Shown piece after piece: positions 13,577 through 40,045 of a stretch of 40,045 nucleotides of DNA. Source of the stretch: Nitrospira sp. (GTDB lineage Bacteria > Nitrospirota > Nitrospiria > Nitrospirales > Nitrospiraceae); the NCBI GenBank assembly GCA_024998685.1, contig JACOEH010000045.1, positions 1 to 40,045 on the forward strand. Direction: 5' to 3'. The notes under the pieces were generated by a model. It was not told the origin of the DNA. It did no database searches and saw only the letters and a program-made list of their open reading frames with translations. Made by a program: the position numbers and the translations under genes. Every line of letters begins with the position of its first letter. Position 1 is the stretch's first letter.

Positions 13577-13963
13577 TTAACTTCTTTCTCGTGAACGGGA
13601 ATCAATAAACTGGATCAGAGCCTGATAGGTCAGCTCCCTTGTTTGCGCTTTCGTCATGCTCAGACCATCCAGGTTTCCTTCCAGCCAGATGCGATTAGAG
13701 ATCGGTTCCACTGCTTCGTTACAAAGAGTCCACATGTCATGGAGAAAACATTCCGGTAAGCCTACTTGGATGCCTTCCGATTCGATGCGATCGTCCAGCA
13801 AGGCGAGGAGATCGGAAAATGCCTGATCGGGACGATAAGGCAGAGGGGTAAAGCCGAACTGTTCTTGGGAATGCTGCTCTTGCGTTGCCTGTTCAACAAG
13901 GTCCCGCATGTACTCTTTGAGCAGACCAATGACATGGCCAGAAAACACAATTGGGTGTTCCAT
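13577..13963 (-). CDS. Hypothetical protein
   Basis: No family is recognised. The 128-residue soluble protein appears mostly helical and acidic, with no signal peptide or cysteine cluster. The ATG at 13963 has only a weak ribosome binding site. It lies about 95 bases upstream of the EVE gene on the same strand and may share its transcript. Upstream is the long gene-free region ending at thrH. Confidence 0.6.
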   Translation of the reverse strand: MEHPIVFSGHVIGLLKEYMRDLVEQATQEQHSQEQFGFTPLPYRPDQAFSDLLALLDDRIESEGIQVGLPECFLHDMWTLCNEAVEPISNRIWLEGNLDGLSMTKAQTRELTYQALIQFIDSRSRERS

Positions 13964-14051
13964 GCGGTATTATCGAGTTTCTTTATGGAAGGAGCAAGAT
14001 CGACTGAGCCGGAAGAGGGAATCCAAGGCGACGATTAGTGAGAATCATTTT

Positions 14052-14188
14052 GTGTGGAGCTGAAAATAAGAGGTGGTGATTGGGCGGGGGTACACCTCGC
14101 TGACTCGGTATGAGCGACGACCTCTCGTTGGCTACCTCATGTTCGGCAGGGTCGGTGTACCCGCGCACCATGAACTCTACACCTTTTT
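14052..14188 (+). ncRNA. Candidate structured non-coding RNA
   Basis: Nested pairing over about 130 bases forms a rod: GTGTGGAG (14052-14059) with CTCTACAC (14175-14182); GTGGTG (14073-14078) with CACCAT (14166-14171); GGGTACACC (14088-14096) with GGTGTACCC (14154-14162); then inner ATGAG with CTCAT and CGACGA with TCGTTG around a CCTC loop. A TTTTT run (14184-14188) follows the closing stem, as for a self-terminating transcript. No match to SRP RNA, tmRNA or RNase P was recognised. The evidence is structure only, and no promoter was identified. Confidence 0.4.
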
Positions 14189-14344
14189 ATGAGACGCACA
14201 AGGCCTAAAGATGGCCTTATGTGTGAGTCCATTTGGGGTAGGTCAAACGAGCCGGTAGGATCTGTCGGTGTCAGTGTTTCGCATAGATCGGGAAACAAGC
14301 CATAGCGACAAGAGGGTGAATCAACTAGAGGTATACCTCAGTAT

Positions 14345-14368
14345 AAGCGCCACGGTGCCGTGGCGCTT
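14345..14368. repeat. Perfect hairpin upstream of thrH
   Basis: AAGCGCCACGG (14345-14355) pairs perfectly with CCGTGGCGCTT (14358-14368). No T-run follows on either strand, so it may be a protein site, an RNA structure or a terminator without a strong tail. It lies 127 bases upstream of thrH. Confidence 0.6.
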
Positions 14369-14495
14369 GATTCAGTGTTCAACGACATATTAATTGTTAC
14401 GTGCTCTATGAACGGTAGACTCAAAGGGTCGTATTGACGCTGCCTCCTGACGGTATCGGGCGGTAGTATCTTCAGTGAAGAAGAGGAGAGATTGC

Positions 14496-15110
14496 ATGAA
14501 AAAACCCGTGGTGGTGTGTTTGGATCTAGAAGGGGTGCTCGTTTCGGAGATCTGGATCAATGTGGCAGTGAAGACGGGCATTGATGACTTGAAGATCACG
14601 ACCCGTGAAATGCCGGATTACGACAAGCTCATGAGGCAGCGATTAGACATACTCGATCGGCAAGCGCTGAAGATCGGCGACATTCAAGCAGTGATTGCCG
14701 AAATGGGTCCTTTAGAAGGGGCGACTGACTTCCTCGCATGGTTGCGGGAGCGCTATCAGGTGATTATTTTGTCAGATACGTTCTATCAGTTCGTTCAGCC
14801 TCTGATGCGACAGTTGGGCTTTCCGACTCTCTTCTGTAATCAGCTGGAAATCGACCGGGATGGTCGCATCGTGAACTACCACATGAGGATGCTTGACCCC
14901 AAGAAGCATGCGGTCGCTGCGCTCAAATCGCTGAACTTCTTTACGATGGCTGCCGGTGATTCGTACAATGACACTGCGATGTTGGGCGAAGCCGACGCCG
15001 GATTTTTCTTCCGGCCGCCGGATCATTTACCGAAAGAATTTCCTCGTTTTCCTGTGACACAGAACTATGGCGAACTTCAGGAGCGATTCGTTCAAGCGGC
15101 CATGGCATAG
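14496..15110 (+). CDS. thrH: Phosphoserine phosphatase / homoserine phosphotransferase ThrH
   Basis: ThrH is a HAD-superfamily enzyme that hydrolyses phosphoserine and can pass the phosphate to homoserine, linking serine and threonine synthesis. The 204 residues show the ThrH form of HAD motif I, CLDLEGVLVSEIW (Asp nucleophile at about residue 10), motif II ILSDTFYQF, Lys in LDPKKHAVAAL, and motif IV AAGDSYNDTAML. The ATG at 14496 has AGGAG about 8 bases upstream, so it is preferred over a start 7 codons earlier. It is monocistronic by appearance. Confidence 0.92.
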   Translation: MKKPVVVCLDLEGVLVSEIWINVAVKTGIDDLKITTREMPDYDKLMRQRLDILDRQALKIGDIQAVIAEMGPLEGATDFLAWLRERYQVIILSDTFYQFVQPLMRQLGFPTLFCNQLEIDRDGRIVNYHMRMLDPKKHAVAALKSLNFFTMAAGDSYNDTAMLGEADAGFFFRPPDHLPKEFPRFPVTQNYGELQERFVQAAMA

Positions 15111-39235: not shown

Positions 39236-39610
39236 AACGCAAGTTCTTGTCAGTTCTTGCTTGGCTCATGCACTATCAGAGAACTAACCGACAAGTTCGT
39301 ACTCTCTAGGGCATGCGTCACGATGGTTTATGACCATACCGCAATCCAGTTCGAGTCGGTAATCCGTCTTCACACCACCGACTACGCATCTCATAAAAAG
39401 TCGTAGGTTTAGTCTCGGAAAAACAGAGTTCCAAGGCCATCAGTCCATCTTTCCAAGCCCCAAATGGACTCACCGGGTAGGGCTATCTTCGAGGATTGCG
39501 CATCTTCGAAAATAGCGTAGAGTCGATCACTCTTCACGCACGTGATGGCGAAGGGAGGGAGTAGAGGGACTCTCTCCCCCTCATCTCACGAACTTGAGGC
39601 CGGAGTGAAG
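39236..39610. other. Intergenic region with two hairpins
   Basis: 375 bases without a convincing gene. CTTGTC-AGTTCT (39246-39257) pairs with AGAACT (39280-39285) and GACAAG (39290-39295), a probable transcript-end structure after the aminopeptidase gene, although no T-run follows. A second hairpin (GCTAT and TTCGA elements, about 39481-39520) lies upstream of the RHS-like gene and could be regulatory. Confidence 0.4.
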
Positions 39611-40045
39611 ATGCACATGACTCTGTGGCGTGTGTGGCAGTCATTAAGGCGCAGGGCACTGATGGCTACATCGGCATTCGCTCTGGCGTTCGTCGTCATC
39701 CTTCCAGGAGTCGCCGCCGATATCAGCTACGTCTATGATGATGTAGGCCGCCTCATGGCCGTCATCGATCCAGCATCCGACACCGCCGTCTACGCCTACG
39801 ATAGCGTCGGCAATCTGACGGGGATCACGCGGCAACCATCTTCGACCCTCGCGATCTTGCAGTTCACCCCACCATCGAGTCCGGTCGGCACGACCGTGAC
39901 GATCTACGGCACACGGGCTTCAGCTCGACGCCGGCATCAAACACGGTCAAATTCAACGGCACGACGGCAACCGTGCTTACCGCCACCACCACTGTCTTGA
40001 CCGCGACTGTGCCCAGCGGCGCGACGACTGGTTCGATCAGTGTCA
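39611..40045 (+). pseudogene. RHS-repeat/TIG-domain secreted protein, partial and frameshifted
   Basis: From the ATG at 39611 (GGAG 5 bases upstream) the protein has a signal peptide (ATSAFALAFVVILPGVAA), then two RHS-type YD repeats (ISYVYDDVGRLMAVID and VYAYDSVGNLTGITRQ), then the start of an IPT/TIG domain (LQFTPPSSPVGTTVTIYGT). At 39911-39914 an extra AC shifts the frame. Removing it restores GTGFSSTPASNTVKFNGTTA, then TVLTATVPSGATTGSISV, a textbook TIG domain to the window's end. As given, the frame runs into an Arg-rich tail and stops at 40000. This is either a real mutation or phase-variable site, or a sequencing error. The gene continues past the window. Confidence 0.75.

Follow-up and report, generated by a model that had tools for sequence, protein, structure and literature searches.

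The question raised by this locus is whether a gene-free region in the genome of a Nitrospira, the principal genus of nitrite oxidisers and comammox bacteria, encodes a structured RNA, and if so, on which strand and between which ends. The region lies in the window (the whole stretch of 40,045 nucleotides analysed here) between a 128-aa ORF on the minus strand and a thrH-type phosphatase gene on the plus strand (14475-15110). An earlier note had put it at 530 bases and placed in it a structured non-coding RNA at 14052-14188, read on the plus strand and ended by TTTTT. The gap is real and contains that interval, but measures 511 bases (13964-14474). The spot most likely holds a real folded RNA, previously uncatalogued, restricted to Nitrospira and encoded on the minus strand. 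A fold was thus rightly recognized there, while the strand, ends and terminator proposed for it are probably wrong. The features discussed below are, along the minus strand:

14202-14240, minus strand: conserved block upstream of the -35, CCCAAATGG-n-TAAGGCCATCTTTAGG, a probable activator site
14196-14201, minus strand: -35 hexamer TTGTGC (TTG in 52 of 53 module copies)
14180-14195, minus strand: promoter spacer of 16 nt, which holds TTTTT (16 nt long in 52 of the 53 copies and at all 42 main loci)
14174-14179, minus strand: -10 hexamer TAGAGT (TAnnnT in 50 of the 53 copies, TAnAnT at all 42 main loci)
14084-14167, minus strand: structured rod RNA with a predicted 5′ end at about 14167, from the invariant TGCGCGGGTACA, pair counts and fold z
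14166-14154 with 14096-14084, minus strand: rod helix 1, from pair counts
CUG 14149-14147 with CAG 14102-14100, minus strand: rod helix 2, from pair counts
14140-14136 with 14114-14110, minus strand: rod helix 3, from pair counts
13999-14083, minus strand: C-rich, G-poor stretch, a candidate Rho-dependent termination zone, from the composition of 39 loci
13969-13997, minus strand: promoter-like site of the 128-aa ORF, TTGCTC-N17-GATAAT, with the start codon a few nucleotides downstream
13577-13963, minus strand: 128-aa ORF, the next downstream on the RNA strand, conserved across the order
39450-39539, minus strand (that of the model match): second module copy, model R2, 75.7 bits

The strand is indicated by a putative promoter. 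Part of the conserved DNA (14174-14237), here called the module, also occurs alone, away from the rod, and 53 copies were aligned, 39 of them from outside the main locus. On the strand opposite to that first proposed, its invariant letters are TTG and, after a spacer of exactly 16 nt, TAnAnT. The spacer is variable in sequence and constant in length, which is the way promoters are conserved, and the copies have the TTG, the TAnnnT and the 16-18 nt spacing of a sigma-70-type promoter. Transcription from promoters of this type starts 6-8 nt after the -10. At the main locus, counted over 42 distinct sequences, the gap between the -10 and the rod is 6 nt in 41 and 5 nt in one, and is followed by TGCGCGGGTACA, the 5′ arm of the rod. 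Because this arm lies invariant 6 nt past the -10 in 41 of 42 sequences, the rod begins where the transcript should, and the predicted start falls on the first base of the rod, itself invariant. It is most likely that transcription proceeds on the strand opposite to the one first proposed and starts inside the interval 14052-14188.

The hexamers match the consensus poorly, and a strict full-consensus or generic promoter scan did not flag the site; for this reason an activator is invoked, and the block upstream of the -35 is read as its probable site. Within this block, the CAA-adjacent AAGATGGCC..TA and TCCAYTTGG are conserved over the 53 copies, and over the 39 loci AGGCCATCTT and CCCAAATGGA are conserved at 100% and 96%, respectively. 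The block can also form a hairpin (14200-14240), which was considered as an RNA module or recombination site for its plus-strand G-U pairs and its closeness to RHS genes and an integrase; it was set aside on the TTG-N16-TAnAnT geometry.

The fold itself is supported on both strands. On the plus strand, the 137 nt reach -54.8 kcal/mol (z -2.57), with 3 of 200 shuffles equally good, while the same interval gives z -2.92 on the minus strand and the minus-strand rod alone (14167-14076) z -3.42. The rod is kept in relatives, whose consensus fold has an energy z of about -5 in both orientations when compared with column-shuffled alignments; this energy is slightly lower on plus than on minus. Since no shuffled alignment attains the observed energy in either orientation, energy leaves the strand undecided. 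Of the helices proposed earlier, the 9-bp stem GGGTACACC/GGTGTACCC (14088-14096 with 14154-14162) is present together with a GCG/CGC extension, as is the inner hairpin. Helix 1 is 97.7% paired among relatives. The test for compensatory changes is less telling: eight cells show changes on both sides, a number matched in 1 of 500 shuffles, whereas the count of three pairs with both-side changes is reached by 241 of 500. Given that pair count, and with 12 of the 19 helix-1 pairs invariant, the covariation is weak. The departures from Watson-Crick pairing in helix 1 mildly favour the minus strand, on which 11 G-U cells and 15 non-pairs are read, versus 4 and 22 on the plus strand.

Conservation delimits the rod on the minus strand. 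It opens at about 14167 with the invariant UGCGCGGGUACA; its first 10 nt are conserved at 100% and its 3′ GUACCC arm at 98%, and conservation is about 64% just beyond the rod (39 loci). Past its 3′ end, the next 85 nt have a mean C content of 0.386 and a mean G content of 0.137, and C exceeds G in all 39 loci; the mean skew is equalled by 0.7% of background windows. The sequence of this stretch is itself poorly conserved. Such a composition fits Rho-dependent termination, and no terminator-like site of the intrinsic kind was found on either strand. Further downstream, the 128-aa protein is present in most genomes of the order and is predicted to form four helices (pLDDT 85.5). It belongs to no Pfam or NCBIfam family, and a fold search gave no PDB match at E ≤ 0.001.

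The distribution of the element is narrow. A DNA search found it once in its own genome and in 21 of the 59 genomes searched (its own included), and a covariance-model search over 235 genomes of the order found it in 43, every one a Nitrospira and always at one locus, with a single rod per genome. Scattered pattern matches in unrelated bacteria are estimated to be at about chance level for so loose a pattern, and six matches in viral contigs come from the same pattern, which yields chance matches. In six relatives (L041, L044, L047, L049, L050 and L051), promoter and rod are missing as a unit between the same neighbours, the 128-aa gene lying almost next to a divergent YkgJ-type gene. On the tree of the 128-aa protein, presence of the RNA needs two changes, one of which is L045, whose label rests on a contig that stops at the 128-aa gene; for this reason a single gain or loss fits. 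A Cys-cluster gene of the YkgJ type stands after the element in many relatives (compare L013-L015, L041 and L044). In the present genome, the thrH-type phosphatase gene (14475) takes its place, behind a similar promoter-like site.

The promoter module is more widely dispersed than the rod. It occurs in 46 of 79 genomes of the genus at one to seven copies each, with six in this genome, the main one included, and the stand-alone modules match no Rfam family. Downstream of these copies lie RHS/YD-repeat genes, a gene for a small, two-helix membrane protein of the MKTLSYSL type, and PEP-CTERM-like genes, an assignment that falls below the Pfam cut-off and rests partly on a VPLPG...LLFGSGLLGL...RR tail. 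Where the -10 is broken, in three copies (L091, L154 and L156), genes of these kinds are missing downstream. A co-oriented ORF starts within 260 nt of 33 of 36 intact modules; since 24 of 36 also have one in the other direction, ORF direction alone is modest evidence, and the recurrence of the same kinds of gene is the stronger. The second copy in the window reads on the plus strand as TTGCGC-N16-TAGAGT (39496-39523) and is followed by an RHS/YD-repeat ORF with an RHS_repeat match, starting near 39611. This ORF (plus strand, within 39496-40000) is short, at 152 aa, and lies near the window end. RHS genes were also considered as a co-occurring partner of the RNA and dropped, their presence per genome being only loosely correlated with it. 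In some loci (L084, L091, L144-L146, L153, L154 and L156), the module is retained upstream of an aldo/keto-reductase-like gene. On its other side lies an RHS gene in some of these and an integrase-like gene in others, and loci without the RHS gene have a broken -10. The module does not behave as a REP- or MITE-type repeat: its copies are few (at most seven per genome), diverged and arranged as promoters, and no terminal repeats were seen.

What such an element does can be read in several ways, two of which share the minus strand. We give an even chance to an activator-dependent structured sRNA ended by Rho. A promoter with its upstream block would start the transcript at the first base of the rod, and an activator bound to that block would switch the RNA on together with the RHS, PEP-CTERM-like and membrane-protein genes. 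Polymerase would then make the rod (about 84 nt) and run into the C-rich stretch, where Rho would stop it, producing an sRNA of some 100-180 nt whose 5′ rod is stable and whose single-stranded tail is rich in C. More speculatively, this tail could pair in trans with G-rich ribosome-binding sites. The promoter-rod geometry, fixed in 42 distinct loci, and the C-rich tail in 39 of 39 speak for this reading, together with the dispersed promoter family and its recurrent kinds of gene, the conserved rod, the mild minus-strand preference of helix 1 and the joint absence of promoter and rod from six relatives. The weak covariation, the slightly better plus-strand fold, the plus-favouring G-U pairs of the upstream hairpin, the negative terminator and promoter scans and the ORFs lying in both directions from the modules speak against it. 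The main rival keeps the same promoter, strand and rod, and is quite possible, though on balance we think it unlikely: the RNA would be the 5′ leader of the 128-aa gene, in which the rod senses something and Rho, acting in the C-rich stretch, decides on read-through into the gene, as in riboswitch leaders. At every rod locus with enough sequence, the 128-aa ORF indeed lies downstream on the same strand, with a near-constant 214-268 nt from the rod start to its SGHVIGLL motif, and leaders of this kind are built in the same way, with a structured domain at +1 and a C-rich stretch ahead of the gene. However, the ORF has its own promoter-like site before its start, present also in genomes without the RNA, the stretch from rod to gene is poorly conserved, and the synteny may be mere inheritance within the genus. 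A broader proposal, which we regard as doubtful, would make the element a new genus-specific class of regulatory RNA, either a Rho-gated ligand-sensing leader or an sRNA aimed at ribosome-binding sites, forming the RNA arm of an activator regulon that links RHS surface proteins, PEP-CTERM-like proteins and a small membrane protein.

The remaining two readings dispense either with the strand or with the RNA. That the block is a DNA feature (a mobile-element remnant, a recombination site or a protein-binding palindrome) and not a functional RNA seems improbable. The module is dispersed, the main-locus block is present or absent by genome set, and the stem arms are invariant, as expected of a sequence-specific site, but the rod is confined to one locus per genome, the module copies show promoter geometry without visible terminal repeats, and the fixed 6 nt between -10 and rod, needless for a binding site, is explained by a transcript start. 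Least probable of all, and very unlikely in our judgement, is the plus-strand RNA ending at TTTTT proposed in the earlier note. Its fold energy is significant, its consensus energy is the slightly lower one, and the G-U pairs of the hairpin at 14200-14240 favour plus. Yet the letters of its outer closing stem, GTGTGGAG/CTCTACAC, exist without being used in the minimum-energy fold; the left arm is poorly conserved and unpaired in relatives, and the right arm overlaps the conserved -10 hexamer of the minus-strand promoter. The left flank, where a plus-strand promoter would sit, is poorly conserved, and the T-run taken for the U-tract end lies in the 16-nt spacer of the conserved promoter on the other strand. 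A plus-strand RNA with a U-tract terminator was therefore rejected on promoter geometry. The supposed 3′ closing arm and U-tract are probably the promoter, and the side taken as upstream is probably the downstream side of the RNA. The case illustrates how a promoter A-tract on one strand can mimic a terminator T-tract on the other.

Returning to the minus-strand RNA, comparison with known families supports a structured non-coding RNA outside Rfam. At the gathering score no Rfam family matches over the element, consistent with the earlier statement that it is unlike SRP RNA, tmRNA and RNase P RNA; only chance matches appear at E up to 10. Among these is ncS54 (14272-14374), which by chance hits a palindrome distinct from the rod: a perfect inverted repeat (AAGCGCCACGGTGCCGTGGCGCTT, 14346-14369) that immediately precedes TTGATT, a promoter-like site belonging to the thrH-type gene. 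Two resemblances were discarded: UGCCGAAC as loop C of 5S rRNA, which is unconserved in divergent members and gives no 5S match, and a T-box-like string, GGUGUACCCGCG, which lies on the wrong (plus) strand and has no match. 6S RNA (RF00013) is likewise a rod-like bacterial RNA, but the element is half as long and lacks the large central bubble. The 6S-like match of this genome lies elsewhere (G000:C31:7579-7652, minus strand, L022); at 45.7 bits against the Rfam cut-off of 46.4, it is probably the true 6S RNA. A literature search on Nitrospira small RNAs found no description of a small RNA of this kind. The work yields a defined RNA family and a testable promoter whose start is precisely predicted, and the recognizable upstream site of the candidate regulon could help to find its regulator.

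Two known systems come closest. With regulated trans-acting sRNAs, the element shares an intergenic position, short length, a structured 5′ part, its own regulated promoter, a single locus and a lineage-restricted distribution; it differs in that no Rfam match or intrinsic terminator was found and in that its promoter module is common to surface-protein genes. The mgtA and ribB leaders are controlled by Rho. The element differs from them in that its downstream gene has its own promoter-like site, with sequences compared through Rfam only, and resembles them in that a structured RNA would open the transcript, with C-rich, G-poor sequence between it and the gene. The element represents a new family within a general kind of RNA that is already known.
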